DNA of 21,244 nt from a virus: IMG/VR virus record IMGVR_UViG_3300021414_000013, positions 1 to 21,244 of that record; one strand, given 5' to 3'. Below, in pieces: positions 5,024 to 14,402 of this stretch; positions within the stretch are counted from its first letter, which is position 1, and each line of letters starts with the position of its first letter. Position numbers and translations under genes: made by a program. Below the pieces are notes generated by a model. The model saw nothing but the letters and a program-made list of their open reading frames with translations. It was not told where the DNA came from and did not search any database.

Positions 5024-7288
5024 TCAGATGAGGTTGTTGCTGACTGACTGGCTGGTGGCGTTATCGACCTTGATCTTGGACCCGGAGTTTCGGGCGTTCA
5101 CGAGCTGCACGATGACGCCGTCCGTGTTAGTCGTCCACACAGCCCAGCGGGCCTGCGCGTAGATGCCGCCGATGACCGTGACATCCGCGGAAGCGTCCGC
5201 CCGCACACCGTCAGCGATGCCCGCGTTCGTGGAGCCGCGCATCTCGCACCCGTTAACCTGGTGCCGGGCGCCGCCGCTAATGAAGATCCCGCCGTACCCG
5301 CCCGCGATGCCCTTGAAAGCGCTCGTGATCGTGTCGTTGCAATCGGTCATCTGCAGCGGATACTGCCCCGGAGTGTCCGCGGTACCGCCGACAAGGTTGA
5401 TGTCATCGATGTAGCGCAGGTCGTAGGCGCACTGCGCGGCACCGTTGATGTCGTTCGCCCACATCGTGAGCTTGCTTGACCGCACCGTCGAAGAGGCGCC
5501 TTCGAGCCGGATCGAGTGGCCGGCGCCGCCGTTGATGGTGTTCCCGCCAACCTTCGCCCCGATGAAGTTGCGGAGCCGGATCGGGTTCGTCCCGCAGTCG
5601 GTGAACTTGTTCCCGGTAACCTCGACATCGTAGGAGACGTACTCGTACTCACTGCCGGTCCTGCCGACGCTGAGGCCGTAGCCGGTCCGGTTGGCCGTGT
5701 TGTCAATGACCCTGATGCCGCGCTGCTCCTGGACGCCGTCGAACGTGTGGACCGCGAACGCCTCACCCGAGCAGTCGGAAATCTCATTGTTGCGGGCCGT
5801 GATGTACTGCCCGCGGAGGTAAAAGCCGTGCGTGGCGCCCTCAACCGTGTTCCCGTCGAACGTCCAGTAGTGGCACGGTTCGTGGCAGTCATACCCTGCA
5901 GAGCTCGCCCGCTGCCCGTCGTTGCCCTTGACGTCCACGAACGCGGGAGGCCACGCGCCGCCGCCGGCCACGAAGTGGCGGCAGTCGTAGAAGTAGCTGT
6001 CCTCCACGGCGATATGCCGGGACCCGTCCCACACGACGGCACCGTAGCCGGTGGGGCCGAAGTTTGGCCCGGTCTTGGTAGATGAAGTGGAGTGGCGGGC
6101 GGTGCTGTTGGTGATCCTGCCGTTGAGGACGGCGCGGAGGCCGAGGGCGGTATCTTCCGCGCCGTCCACACTGACCCGGTCAATGGTGATGTCGCGCCCG
6201 TAGGCGACCTGCACGCCGTTGTGGGCCGAGTCCACCCCGCCCATGAGGATATTCAGGGACTCCACGCCCACGCCCTCAACGGGGGTGACCTTGCGGATGG
6301 CGAGGTCTGTGGAGGCGTAATCGAACAGGGCCCCGTAGCGGAGCGTGACCTGCGTGGGGGAATCGACGGAGGCTATTTCGTTCAGTTCGCCCTTGGACCG
6401 GTCGGTGCGTGTCATGCCGATCACGGGCCGTTCGCCGTTGGAGATGAGGACCATGTCTCCCGCCACGAGTCCGCTGGCGGCGATCCCCGGCGTGGTGTTC
6501 ACGTTGGTGACGGTCTTGCCCCATTTGGTGATCGGCGCGTCAACGAGGACCGTGTCGCCGAGGGTCCCGTCGGAGCGGATCGCGTACCGCTGGGACAGGT
6601 GGTCGGCGTCCGCCATGCCGGTGCAGTCCAGGGTCGCGTAGTTGCCCAGCAGGAACGTCTTCGTCGGAAGGGTCAGCCCGTTCGGCGTGATGTACGTCGC
6701 GGCCGTGCGCAGCGATAGGACTTTCCCGGCGTTCGCTGCCACGAAGGTATCCAGCATCATCGTGTCGTCGGCGCCGGTCGGCTCCGGGGCGATCACAGTC
6801 GGGAAGGCTTCCGCTACGGCGGCAAGGAGTGCCGTGCGGGTCAGAGACTCACCCTCCGTGCTGATGTATCCGGCAACGGCCGCATCGGCGGGGACAGCGT
6901 TGGTGCCGGGAAGGCCCTGCGGTCCACGTGGAAGGGTCAGGTTGATCTTCTGCTCCGGGGCGGTCCCGGTCAGCGCCACACCCGGCGACGTGCCAACAGC
7001 CACGGTTCCGACACTGAGACGGTTCGCGGGCCCGGTCTTGCCGATATCGCCCTTGGCGCCCCTGTCGCCCTTCGCGCCCTGCGGCAGCGTCAGATTCAGC
7101 TTCTGCGCCGGGGCGAGCCCGGTAAGGCTGGCGCTGGCAGCCGCGCCAGCAACAACCGTGCCGACGCTGATCTGGTTCGCCGGCCCCACAGCACCCGGAG
7201 AGCCGGGAGCGCCTGGCGCACCAGGTGCGCCGGGAGTCCCCGGGGTGCCGGCCGGACCCTTGAGGTTAGCTTTTAGGATCCAAGGCAT
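5024..7288 (-). CDS. Tailspike-like minor tail protein: collagen-like neck plus beta-helix
   Basis: This 754-residue protein begins with a short anchor, then Gly-X-Y collagen-like repeats (about 11-36, 71-87, 121-128). These are interleaved with two copies of a roughly 51-residue module starting GPAN at 35 and 86 (SVGTV...LTG.AP.QK.NLTLP). A linker and small domain (about 130-290) lead into a long right-handed parallel beta-helix (about 300-740) with short N/D/G-rich coils, such as the NGVQVAYGRDITIDRVSVDG stretch. Such folds occur in tailspikes and polysaccharide-degrading depolymerases. No catalytic triad could be assigned from sequence. Several cysteines (for example YDCHEPCHYW) are unusual for such a fold. 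The ATG is one base after the upstream stop, behind GGAG. Confidence 0.88.
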   Translation of the reverse strand: MPWILKANLKGPAGTPGTPGAPGAPGAPGSPGAVGPANQISVGTVVAGAAASASLTGLAPAQKLNLTLPQGAKGDRGAKGDIGKTGPANRLSVGTVAVGTSPGVALTGTAPEQKINLTLPRGPQGLPGTNAVPADAAVAGYISTEGESLTRTALLAAVAEAFPTVIAPEPTGADDTMMLDTFVAANAGKVLSLRTAATYITPNGLTLPTKTFLLGNYATLDCTGMADADHLSQRYAIRSDGTLGDTVLVDAPITKWGKTVTNVNTTPGIAASGLVAGDMVLISNGERPVIGMTRTDRSKGELNEIASVDSPTQVTLRYGALFDYASTDLAIRKVTPVEGVGVESLNILMGGVDSAHNGVQVAYGRDITIDRVSVDGAEDTALGLRAVLNGRITNSTARHSTSSTKTGPNFGPTGYGAVVWDGSRHIAVEDSYFYDCRHFVAGGGAWPPAFVDVKGNDGQRASSAGYDCHEPCHYWTFDGNTVEGATHGFYLRGQYITARNNEISDCSGEAFAVHTFDGVQEQRGIRVIDNTANRTGYGLSVGRTGSEYEYVSYDVEVTGNKFTDCGTNPIRLRNFIGAKVGGNTINGGAGHSIRLEGASSTVRSSKLTMWANDINGAAQCAYDLRYIDDINLVGGTADTPGQYPLQMTDCNDTITSAFKGIAGGYGGIFISGGARHQVNGCEMRGSTNAGIADGVRADASADVTVIGGIYAQARWAVWTTNTDGVIVQLVNARNSGSKIKVDNATSQSVSNNLI
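6905..7186 (-). repeat. Collagen-flanked tandem module in the tailspike
   Basis: Two copies of a roughly 51-codon unit (residues 35-85 and 86-128) alternate with Gly-X-Y tracts. The second copy reads GPANRLSVGTVAVG..., the first GPANQISVGTVVAG.... Tandem units like this can lengthen or shorten a trimeric stalk by recombination. Confidence 0.8.
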
Positions 7289-7289
7289 G

Positions 7290-7718
7290 TTATGCGCTCC
7301 ATTCGGAAAGGTCGCCGGTCGTGGTATTCAGCCACCACGTAGCGATAGCGGGGCTGGAAGGTGCGGTGGGGGACGCATAGACGGACGTCGGGGCGAAGTC
7401 GAGCGCGGCAAGGTCGCCGATCGCGCCGCCTGTCGATGGCACTCGGAACTTTTCGATGACGTCCACGCCGATGTAATTGCTCGCGGAGTCAAGCCATGTG
7501 GCCTTCACCGTGTACCAGGCGTCCGGGCGCAGGTCCGCGGTACTGGACAGCGTCACGCTGAACGCGCCGCCGCTATCCGGGGTGACCGTGACCGGCGTTG
7601 TGGCAAGGAATAGGGAGCCGTTGAATGCCGGCCCGGACGGGGTGAAGGTGATTTGTGGCTGCCTCGCGGAAATGGACGCAAGCCCGAAGTCCTTCAGCGT
7701 GCCGGTAACGGTGGGCAT
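7290..7718 (-). CDS. Small minor tail protein (beta-rich)
   Basis: A 142-residue protein rich in Thr, Ser, Pro and beta-strand-prone stretches (FTPSGPAFNGSLFLATTPVTVTPDSGGAFSVTL...). The central part reads like an Ig- or fibronectin-type beta sandwich. The C terminus (ATWWLNTTTGDLSEWSA) resembles the short sequences found just ahead of actinophage tailspike genes. The ATG at 7718 follows AGGAGG with 4 nt spacing. The stop at 7290-7292 is one base before the tailspike start, so translation is likely coupled. It is probably a tail-tip adaptor for the spike; the exact family is not recognised. Confidence 0.72.
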   Translation of the reverse strand: MPTVTGTLKDFGLASISARQPQITFTPSGPAFNGSLFLATTPVTVTPDSGGAFSVTLSSTADLRPDAWYTVKATWLDSASNYIGVDVIEKFRVPSTGGAIGDLAALDFAPTSVYASPTAPSSPAIATWWLNTTTGDLSEWSA

Positions 7719-7735
7719 GGTGCCTCCTGGGCATG

Positions 7736-7768
7736 AGAAAGCCCGCGCATGGCAGGCTGGGTTTTTAA
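7736..7768. terminator. Weak two-way hairpin between moron and tail gene
   Basis: AGCC (7739-7742) can pair with GGCT (7756-7759), flanked by A's on the left and a T-run (7762-7766) on the right. It could be a weak terminator in either direction at the junction between the rightward lipoprotein gene and the leftward tail genes. The stem is short. Confidence 0.3.
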
Positions 7769-7785
7769 TCGGGTGCGCGGTCGGC

Positions 7786-7791
7786 TACACT
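7786..7791 (+). promoter_or_regulatory. -10 element for a leaderless lipoprotein transcript
   Basis: TACACT fits the TAnnnT consensus of an actinobacterial -10 box, and its last base lies 6 nt before the ATG at 7798. Transcription would then start at or next to the start codon. No Shine-Dalgarno sequence precedes the ATG, which supports a leaderless mRNA. No good -35 is visible; TTTTAA at 7763-7768 is the best candidate. Confidence 0.55.
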
Positions 7792-7797
7792 CACGGC

Positions 7798-8130
7798 ATG
7801 GGAAGACTTGGGGGAATCATTCTTTTGGCATCACTCGCGCTCAGCGGGTGCGCGTCCTCTACGGCCGCCAGCGCGGAGCCGACGCGGCGCGGTGTAGTCC
7901 AGCCCGCCACCGTCGTGAACGAGGCGAAGGTTGGCGAGTTCGTCAAAGACGTTCAGAGCTCCGGGACCGCCTACGCCGCCCTTCCGCCCGCTGACATTGC
8001 CGGGATGGCGCTGGAACTCTGCCAGCACTACGACGGTGGCTTCACCACCGAAGACCTGCGCAAGTCAGCAGGCGACAAGCTAGCCAAAGCCGGAGAAACC
8101 GCTAGGCTTACCGTCTGCCCGCCGCGCTAG
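7798..8130 (+). CDS. Secreted lipoprotein, DUF732-like (moron)
   Basis: This 110-residue protein begins with a lipoprotein signal: Arg3, a hydrophobic core (residues 5-15) and lipobox LSGC with lipidated Cys18. After a Ser/Ala/Pro-rich linker, residues 44-108 form a small helical domain with C75 and C107 probably disulphide-bonded. The pattern FVKDVQSSG...LELC...TVCP resembles DUF732 of actinobacterial secreted proteins. It is the only rightward gene inside the leftward tail module, with its own -10 box and no ribosome binding site. The shadow frame extends upstream to 7477, but ATG 7798 is chosen because it starts the signal peptide and follows the promoter. The layout suggests expression from the prophage, perhaps altering the host surface or blocking superinfection; that is inference. 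Confidence 0.82.
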   Translation: MGRLGGIILLASLALSGCASSTAASAEPTRRGVVQPATVVNEAKVGEFVKDVQSSGTAYAALPPADIAGMALELCQHYDGGFTTEDLRKSAGDKLAKAGETARLTVCPPR

Positions 8131-13133: not shown

Positions 13134-13849
13134 TTATCGTTTGCGGGGTGCTTCGATCGGGTGCAGGGCCAGGCCGAGGCGGGTGGCGGCGATGACCCGG
13201 CCGTCGGGGTGGAACGTCGGTGGCTTGCCGATCAGGCCGATGATGCGGACCTGCAGCCACCGCCACGAACGGGCCCGCAGGATGCCGGAGCTAAGGTCGA
13301 TGCCGGCGTCCTGCAGGTCAGCTTCGATCGCGTTCCAGTGCTTGAGGATTTCGGACCATTTCAGGCCCGGCTTGCCGTGCCCTTCGGGGTAGTCGTACCA
13401 GTCCGAGAGGCCCGTTTCCGGGTCGTAGTCGCCGCGGCCGTAGATATCCGGGTCGCCGTTCGGCGCTGTTCCCGATTCTGGGCCGGCGCTTTTCCCTCTG
13501 CCTTCCAGAAGGTTTCGGCCGTGGCGAAGTCCTGCGTGTGCCACAGGAGGGCGGTGGAGCCGATGAACTTCAGGGCCGGGAAGGATGCGCCGTCAGCGAT
13601 CAGTTCGGGGTAGACGGGGCCGAGGATCTGCTCATAGAAGCCCAGCTCCTCGGCGTCGTTGACGAGTTCGATGGACGCCGGGTCGAGGCTTTCCTCGGTG
13701 GCGGCGCGGATCCCGGCGGAGACGAGCTTCTGCAGCCGGAGGCCGGTTTCGGCGGACACGGCGGGAACCTGGTAGGTCTTCCCGCGGAACGGTACGGCGA
13801 GGAACGGGTCCAGGAAGGAGCCGAGCTGTTCAAGGTTGGGGGTAGTCAC
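13134..13849 (-). CDS. Tail assembly chaperone GT fusion (by -1 frameshift)
   Basis: This is the long product of the chaperone pair. The first 120 codons are shared with the short G-type protein (13849 to 13490). A -1 slip on GGGAAAA then moves ribosomes into the overlapping frame, adding 118 residues to a TAA at 13134-13136 and giving about 238 residues. The extension begins KSAGPESGTAPNG, contains DPETGLSDWYDYPEGHGKPGLKWSEILKHWNAI, and ends in EAPRKR. In lambda and many siphophages, G and GT bind the tape measure and load the tail-tube subunit, with the fusion made at low frequency. Both genes lie between the major tail protein and the tape measure, exactly as expected. Confidence 0.9.
13361..13849 (-). 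CDS. Tail assembly chaperone G
   Basis: The short chaperone ends at TGA 13361-13363 without frameshifting, giving 162 residues. It has an N-terminal acidic/hydrophobic helical domain (LEQLGSFLDPFLAVPFRGKTYQVPAVS...) and the typical ALKFIGSTALLWHTQDFATAETFWKAEGK end. After the slip site the zero-frame tail is basic and Thr/Arg-rich, with the low-complexity look of an unselected extension. I chose GTG at 13849 because GGAG lies 6 nt upstream; the TTG at 13861 has no such site. A strong hairpin with complementary downstream repeats sits in its leader. Confidence 0.88.
   Translation of the reverse strand: MTTPNLEQLGSFLDPFLAVPFRGKTYQVPAVSAETGLRLQKLVSAGIRAATEESLDPASIELVNDAEELGFYEQILGPVYPELIADGASFPALKFIGSTALLWHTQDFATAETFWKAEGKAPAQNREQRRTATRISTAAATTTRKRASRTGTTTPKGTASRA
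13490..13496 (-). promoter_or_regulatory. Programmed -1 frameshift site GGGAAAA
   Basis: In the G frame the codons read GAG GGA AAA, so the heptamer G GGA AAA fits X XXY YYZ with X=G, Y=A and Z=A. After a -1 slip the reading continues AGC GCC GGC into the 13134 frame, which matches the start of the extension. GGGAAAA is a known slippery heptamer in phage tail chaperone genes. Confidence 0.9.
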
Positions 13850-13855
13850 GATGTT

Positions 13856-13926
13856 CTCCAAGGTGTAGGGGTTCCAAGGTCCAAGGGTGGAGCCCGGCGC
13901 GCAGCCCTTGGAAACTGCGCGCCGGG
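13856..13926 (-). promoter_or_regulatory. Hairpin with three CCTTGGA copies before the G gene
   Basis: On the minus strand, CCCGGCGCGCAG (13926-13915) pairs perfectly over 12 bp with CTGCGCGCCGGG (13904-13893), closing the 10-base loop TTTCCAAGGG (13914-13905). Three copies of CCTTGGA follow: 13887-13880 (CCCTTGGA), 13879-13872 (CCTTGGAA) and 13863-13856 (CCTTGGAG, which contains the ribosome binding site). The loop can pair with 8, 8 or 7 bases of them. Confidence 0.75.
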
Positions 13927-13937
13927 AGTAGAGGGGG

Positions 13938-14402
13938 TTACGGGGTGATGACGACGTCCGCGAGCGGGCCGCGGCCGGAGAGGCTGAAGGAGGCCGTGGT
14001 CAGGTCGGTGTGTGCGCCGCCCTCATCGGTGAACGACGCGTCGGCGATGCCGGTACGCCCCTCGGTCGGCTTCGTCGCGTTGACGATGCGGACGTGCACG
14101 AGGCCGTCCTCGAGCATCCCGGAACCGGCCGCCCGCAGGATCGCCTGGCCCGGGTCCTCGGTCAGGGAAGCGCGGGCCCGCTTGACGGTGCCCTCCACCT
14201 TCCAGCCGAGGCCGGTGGCGATCTCGGACGCCCAGCCGTCGGAGTCGAAGGACGAGTCGTCCTCGAGGTTTTTCTCGATGGCCGGCGGGGTGAAGTTGGT
14301 AATGCCCTTTACGCGGGTCCAAGCTGTCGGTTCGGCGCCGTCGGTGTACGCGGCAACTTCCAGCTGCCAGTCGCGGACAACGCCACTGATGATTTCGGTC
14401 AT
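13938..14402 (-). CDS. Major tail (tube) protein
   Basis: This 154-residue protein forms the tail tube. It shows the alternation of strands and the patterns usual for lambda V/SPP1 gp17-like tube proteins: DWQLEVAAYTDG at the start, VKGITNFTPPAIEKNLEDDSSFDSDGWASEIATGLGWKVEGTVKRA in the middle, and ASFSLSGRGPLADVVITP at the end. It sits between the tail terminator and the chaperones, the standard place. ATG 14402 follows GGAG with 6 nt spacing. A perfect hairpin begins 12 bases beyond its stop, as also happens after the capsid gene; both are the most abundant structural proteins. Size is at the lower end for the family. Confidence 0.9.
   Translation of the reverse strand: MTEIISGVVRDWQLEVAAYTDGAEPTAWTRVKGITNFTPPAIEKNLEDDSSFDSDGWASEIATGLGWKVEGTVKRARASLTEDPGQAILRAAGSGMLEDGLVHVRIVNATKPTEGRTGIADASFTDEGGAHTDLTTASFSLSGRGPLADVVITP

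Follow-up and report, generated by a model that had tools for sequence, protein, structure and literature searches.

SAM-II and preQ1 translational riboswitches hide or free the Shine-Dalgarno sequence (SD) by pseudoknot formation, and in the repZ/repA leaders activation comes from pairing of a hairpin loop with a short stretch next to the SD of a downstream gene. The leader pseudoknot of repZ/repA in the I-complex (ColIb-P9) and IncL/M plasmids is described, in titles cited in PMC10724649, as a translational switch. In the gene 32 operator of phages T4 and RB69 a leader pseudoknot is followed by tandem repeats overlapping the ribosome-binding site, RBS (PMC535899). Cluster K mycobacteriophages carry short sequences at translation starts (SAS/ESAS), some with an upstream inverted repeat, SAS being one conserved 13-bp sequence that recurs 11-19 times per genome, in its right half (PMC3203893).

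The element analysed here, a hairpin followed by loop-complementary repeats between tail-tube and tail-chaperone genes, resembles each of these in part. As in the repZ/repA leaders, its loop complements sequence at the SD, the last copy overlapping, abutting or lying near the SD in eight loop classes; the plasmid leaders serve a plasmid initiator gene and have a single partner sequence, with a leader peptide and an antisense RNA as regulator, whereas the phage element has tandem partner copies in a late operon, and no antisense RNA was identified. Judged by eye, a leader peptide gene does not seem to fit between the hairpin and the chaperone start. It likewise places a putative pseudoknot (suggested by covariation) before repeats over the RBS, as in T4 gene 32; the repeats of that replication gene (UUAAA/UAAA) are binding sites of its known regulator, gp32, and are not described as loop-complementary, and here the candidate regulated product is a chaperone, not a single-strand-binding protein. 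Like SAS/ESAS, it is a short sequence at an actinophage translation start, but it occupies a single structural-gene junction, its sequence differs between lineages while the complementarity stays, and the other RBS of the operon differ from it. In contrast to SAM-II and preQ1, there is no conserved core, the loop sequence changes freely between lineages, and no Rfam match was obtained (Rfam 15: no family at gathering score in the window; a further search gave only RF03071, 15.9 bits against a cut-off of 40.5, on the other strand). None of the closest systems found has several loop partners in tandem that exclude one another, and the searched literature, in which subscription papers were thinly covered so that absence is weak evidence, held no description of such an element. 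The element is best placed with the RBS-controlling RNA pseudoknots, outside any named family, and has the look of a control element in RNA that has not been described before, not of a coincidence.

Anatomy of the leader in the window

The window, the whole stretch of DNA analysed, is an IMG/VR virus record of 21,244 bases with its structural genes on the minus strand (gene families: portal, major head, connector, major tail, chaperone, tape-measure). A leader of about 90 nt lies on this strand between the major tail gene and the chaperone GTG. Its features and their neighbours, in window coordinates, are:

13938-14402, minus strand: major tail (tube) protein gene (phrog_3884, E 2.7e-32)
13893-13926, minus strand: hairpin S1, perfect 12 bp, 3' of the tail-tube stop codon (CCCGGCGCGCAG-TTTCCAAGGG-CTGCGCGCCGGG)
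13915-13926, minus strand: S1 5' arm CCCGGCGCGCAG, read directly; covaries in relatives (29 distinct stems)
13905-13914, minus strand: hairpin loop TTTCCAAGGG (RNA: UUUCCAAGGG), putative 5' partner of pseudoknot helix S2
13893-13904, minus strand: S1 3' arm CTGCGCGCCGGG, read directly; covaries in relatives
13880-13887, minus strand: copy 1, CCCTTGGA, 8-nt loop complement, duplex -12.8 kcal/mol
13872-13879, minus strand: copy 2, CCTTGGAA, 8-nt loop complement, duplex -10.5 kcal/mol
13857-13863, minus strand: copy 3, CCTTGGA, 7-nt loop complement, -9.5 kcal/mol, overlapping the chaperone RBS
13856-13859, minus strand: GGAG, RBS of the chaperone gene, six nt 5' of the GTG at 13847-13849
13361-13849, minus strand: tail assembly chaperone gene (G-like), GTG start (phrog_3860, E 2.6e-29; Pfam DUF7426, E 2.4e-39)
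13134-13544, minus strand: open frame overlapping the 3' part of the chaperone gene (GT-like extension; phrog_13398)

In transcript order the leader RNA reads: hairpin (loop UUUCCAAGGG), CUCCA, CCCUUGGA, CCUUGGAA, a short gap, CCUUGGAG and AACAUC-GUG. The first-pass annotation had described a perfect 12-bp stem closing the loop, three CCTTGGA copies able to pair with it (8, 8 and 7 bp) and a last copy over the GGAG before the chaperone GTG, and each of these is present at the positions listed above. Copy 3 covers the GGA of GGAG (extended reading CCTTGGAG, 13856-13863, minus strand), and the chaperone RBS reads TTGGAG, most of the other clear RBS in the window operon being AGGAG(G).

Over both strands of the window, 2.35 occurrences of the heptamer CCTTGGA would be expected; here it was found three times within 31 nt of one strand, adjoining a complementary loop, and the loop complementarity of the spacer was reached by 0 of 1000 dinucleotide shuffles. 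The folding energy of the leader was unremarkable (z -1.65), so thermodynamic folding alone would have missed the element: what marks it out is that loop and repeats are complementary and that this is conserved, not the folding energy. Predicted SD accessibility without the pseudoknot was not uniformly high (0.05-0.62), a point against the repressing reading set out below, and the accessibility predictions were uninformative. An intrinsic terminator was rejected, there being no minus-strand site at the locus and the stem being followed by CTCCACC with no T run; no promoter-like site was detected either, by a scan that covers actinobacterial promoters poorly. A role of CCTTGGAG as a genome-wide, SAS-like start sequence was also rejected, as within the window it occurs only at the chaperone start.

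Other observations were made in the window. Inside the chaperone gene, a GGGAAAA slippery heptamer was read by eye at 13490-13496 (minus strand, frame G.GGA.AAA) which, with the overlapping -1 open frame to 13134, has the form of a G/GT-type frameshift. Two tail genes are separated by an ORF that runs the other way (7477-8130, plus strand) and gave no Pfam match as a whole; from an internal methionine it reads lipoprotein-like (MGRLGGIILLASLALSGCASS...) and is perhaps a lysogenic-conversion gene. The tail-fibre-like protein at 5024-7288 (minus strand) has a short collagen-like repeat and, after it, a right-handed beta-helix domain.

Covariation of loop and repeats among relatives

A total of 83 distinct tube-chaperone gaps were collected, and about 40 of them share the same plan; the combination of hairpin and loop-complementary repeats is not chance, and it occurs in many phages of soil actinobacteria. 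In the first relatives the loop TTTCCAAGGG is unchanged while the stem changes on both sides, two or three copies are kept, the last being CCTTGGAG at the RBS, and hairpin and repeats persist ahead of chaperones with identities to that of the window down to about 40-45%: the leader has stayed constant while the chaperone gene behind it was exchanged. Two loci (L009, L010) have sister tube proteins, the same leader plan and different chaperone subtypes (77% and 40% identical to that of the window), placing a gene-exchange boundary at the element. Stem S1 covaries: 29 distinct stems gave 336 of 348 cells paired, with at least three pair types at every position, counted on explicitly located stems (the MAFFT leader alignment misplaced L033/L053 in the loop).

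The loop is constant in most Micrococcaceae-type relatives and is swapped along with the repeats in other lineages, the two having changed together in at least eight. Eight loop/repeat classes were distinguished (for example CCAAGGG/CCCTTGG, GTCGAGG/CCTCGAC, CTGACTGGG/CCCAGTCAG and CGGGTTGTT/AACAACCCG), and a ninth was found by way of the chaperone family DUF7426 alone. Loops and copies outside the first relatives are:

Brevibacterium prophages: loop CCAAGTGG, repeat CACTTGGA in three or four copies
Class C (L047-L052): loop GTCGAGG, one CCTCGAC, directly 5' of AAGGAG in L048, L049 and L052
Class D (L237): loop TGTCCTGACTGGG, copies CCAGTCAG, CCCAGTCAGGACA and CCCAGTCAGGAG
Class E (L284 and L266): loop TTCCTGG or TCCTGG, CCAGGA three times, the last running into the SD
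Class F (L272): loop TGGCTGAG, copies TCAGCCA and CTCAGCCA
Class G (L234-L278): loop CGGCTGTGG (GGCTGT loops), ACAGCC(G/A) copies, one on the start codon
Class H (Curtobacterium phage Parvaparticeps): loop CGGGTTGTT, copies AACAACCCG and ACAACCCG before GGAGG
Class I, the ninth (L304): TGGGGATG/CATCCCCA before AGAAAGG

Compensatory changes were found within this set: CCAAGGG/CCCTTGG became CCAAGTG/CACTTGG in Brevibacterium (a double change), TCCAAGG/CCTTGGA became GTCGAGG/CCTCGAC in L047-L052, altering three pairs on both sides, and at the seventh pair of class G a loop C or T goes with a copy G or A. The loop-by-spacer matrix is near block-diagonal, loops finding a match only in the spacer of their own locus or of close relatives. 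When each of the eight classes was represented once, a single one of the 40,320 permutations of loop-spacer assignments, the true one, reached 166 nt (mean 31.5), the classes having been assigned after viewing the sequences and related loci not being independent. Locus by locus, dinucleotide-shuffle values were 0.011 or less in nearly all element-bearing gaps, and loop-copy duplex energies, -9.5 to -12.8 kcal/mol in the window, ranged from -8.5 to -25 elsewhere. Loop-repeat co-variation in related phages had been proposed in the first-pass annotation as a check of its reading, and in these eight classes the co-variation is strongly evident. In Parvaparticeps (L064 1198 and 1255, MZ357096.1) the annotated TTG chaperone start falls inside the hairpin, and the in-frame ATG after GGAGG (record position 27405) is a likelier start.

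Placement and distribution of the element

The element has a fixed position at the tube-chaperone junction. A scan of 1.92 Mb on both strands for stems of 9 bp or longer whose loop has two or more complements further downstream returned 41 distinct hits from a fetched set enriched in such gaps, all of them in the tube-chaperone gap except three unrelated ones and one antisense reading of the element; the element was found once in the window and once in the complete Parvaparticeps genome. A viral-contig search for GTCGAGG..CCTCGAC..AAGGAG gave mostly chance matches and was reused as scan background, a search with a closer chaperone alignment yielded no new lineage, and a broad chaperone alignment offered no searchable stretch.

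In the tube-protein tree, one supported clade is occupied by classes A, B and C in 28 of its 29 rows and another by E and F, G makes up most of a third, and D and H each stand alone. Well-supported branches of this tree force at least five changes between presence and absence, and the plan would thus be either old and often lost, or have arisen or moved repeatedly. About half of the 83 gaps are without the plan: their hairpin is plain or terminator-like, or the two genes have no space between them; since so many relatives have no repeats, the element is dispensable. Repeats are absent from the named phages of Microbacterium, Gordonia, Streptomyces, Rhodococcus and Micromonospora that have related tubes or chaperones, in which this place is taken by a hairpin or other genes or the gap is missing; Parvaparticeps is the only named phage examined that has them. 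One locus inside the element clade (L030) has a hairpin without a complement in the spacer; in L030/L300 (Arthrobacter sp. GMC3) the loop is GCACCTCGG, and an 8-nt complement, CCGAGGTG, lies inside the chaperone coding sequence. The gap L104 from 1978 (genome G783) has two successive hairpins, the first loop, CAGCTAC, complementing GTAGCTG at the end of the second, and is possibly a variant of the element.

Proposed control of chaperone initiation and its alternatives

Base pairing in cis probably acts on the initiation of chaperone translation, whether up or down, and on balance we favour a repressing RNA pseudoknot in which tandem upstream copies compete with the copy at the RBS. Such an element would act in cis on the late mRNA from the junction of the tail-tube and tail-chaperone genes, where a GC-rich hairpin (about 12-15 bp) would present a loop able to pair with any one of one to four tandem copies lying between the hairpin and the chaperone start, giving mutually exclusive H-type pseudoknots, one copy at a time. 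Pairing of the loop with the last copy (overlapping or abutting the SD, with a further copy over the start codon in one class) would block 30S binding, and pairing with an upstream copy would leave the RBS free. The upstream copies, transcribed first and matching better in the window, would vie with the last copy for the loop. Chaperone starts relative to the abundant tube protein from the same transcript would then be set by how many copies there are and how strongly they pair, and chaperone output would be lowered. Loop-copy pairing is well supported; we infer that it forms in vivo and represses, that the upstream copies are decoys and that the purpose is stoichiometric. More tentatively, the leader may be a ratio-setting RNA, its loop stochastically shared by N tandem copies of which only one lies over the RBS; if so, copy number and match length would encode the tube:chaperone output, and loop and repeats would evolve in concert, the sequence replaced many times and the pairing kept.

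The mutually exclusive pseudoknots at the RBS put forward in the first-pass annotation fit initiation control in that classes A, B, D and E have a last copy overlapping the SD; hiding of the RBS did not hold across all relatives, class C having a single copy that abuts the RBS rather than hiding it. The copy also abuts the SD in G and H, and since the RBS core lies outside the last upstream copy in classes C, F, G, H and I, occlusion there would be steric. In several classes a linker of 3-5 nt would have to span a stem of 12-14 bp to bring in the nearest copy, which is short in terms of pseudoknot geometry and seems strained if the fold is of the classical H type; the stem may have to open in part for these copies, or they may pair more weakly than base pairing suggests.

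Because the copy abuts rather than covers the SD in several classes, the main rival is an activating, repZ-like form, which we consider unlikely, in which the loop paired with upstream copies would hold the RBS open or form a standby platform and so raise chaperone translation. The copies of classes C, G and H, which end directly or 2 nt before the SD (CCTCGACAAGGAG, ACAGCCAAAGGAG, ACAACCCGCCGGAGG) without covering it, are consistent with this form, as are the upstream copies of the window, which match better than the SD copy (-12.8 vs -9.5 kcal/mol), and ColIb-P9 offers a precedent for an activator with its loop upstream of the SD (reference titles in PMC10724649). An activator, however, would not need the SD itself inside the last copy, as it is in classes A, B, D and E, class G has an extra copy on the start codon, and no repZ-like competing inhibitory hairpin over the RBS was identified.

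T4 gene 32 joins a leader pseudoknot to repeats lying in tandem over its RBS (PMC535899), and by analogy the tube protein, the chaperone or some other late product of the phage might bind the pseudoknot, spread over the repeats and shut off chaperone synthesis. Conservation of the architecture, not the sequence, could be expected for structure recognition of this sort, but all classes have repeats complementary to the loop, a match not called for if a protein bound the repeats in unstructured form, and no candidate RNA-binding protein was identified; we regard such an operator as improbable.

Repeat-free hairpins, some terminator-like with a T run, fill the same gap in many relatives, and the hairpin could accordingly be read as an ordinary transcript-end or mRNA-stability structure after the tube gene, beside which the repeats are incidental. 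This is very improbable given the loop-specific complementarity reached by one permutation alone and the low shuffle values in nearly all element-bearing gaps, and the window locus has neither a T run nor a terminator-like site; a stability role of the hairpin could coexist with loop-copy pairing. Operator or recombination sites in both orientations, read by one DNA-binding protein, would also produce loop-repeat co-variation through shared protein specificity and would suit the exchange of chaperone subtypes behind a constant element, but are hardly credible, as the inverted copy always lies in a hairpin loop with a covarying stem and the other copies all have the opposite orientation, all copies fall between tube stop and chaperone start, at the chaperone RBS, and the Parvaparticeps genome has no second such element.

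Siphovirus tails need the tube protein and the chaperone in very different amounts from one transcript, and control is known to act at the G/GT frameshift, close to where the chaperone gene ends; a described mechanism setting how often the chaperone starts was not found in the searched literature. The element, with pairing-based repression as our preferred reading, is a covariation-supported candidate for control of the chaperone start, and its code, the loop and its copies, is directly testable. Since multi-partner, mutually exclusive pseudoknots with sequence turnover and kept complementarity are invisible to sequence-based RNA families, other elements of this kind may hide at phage gene junctions.
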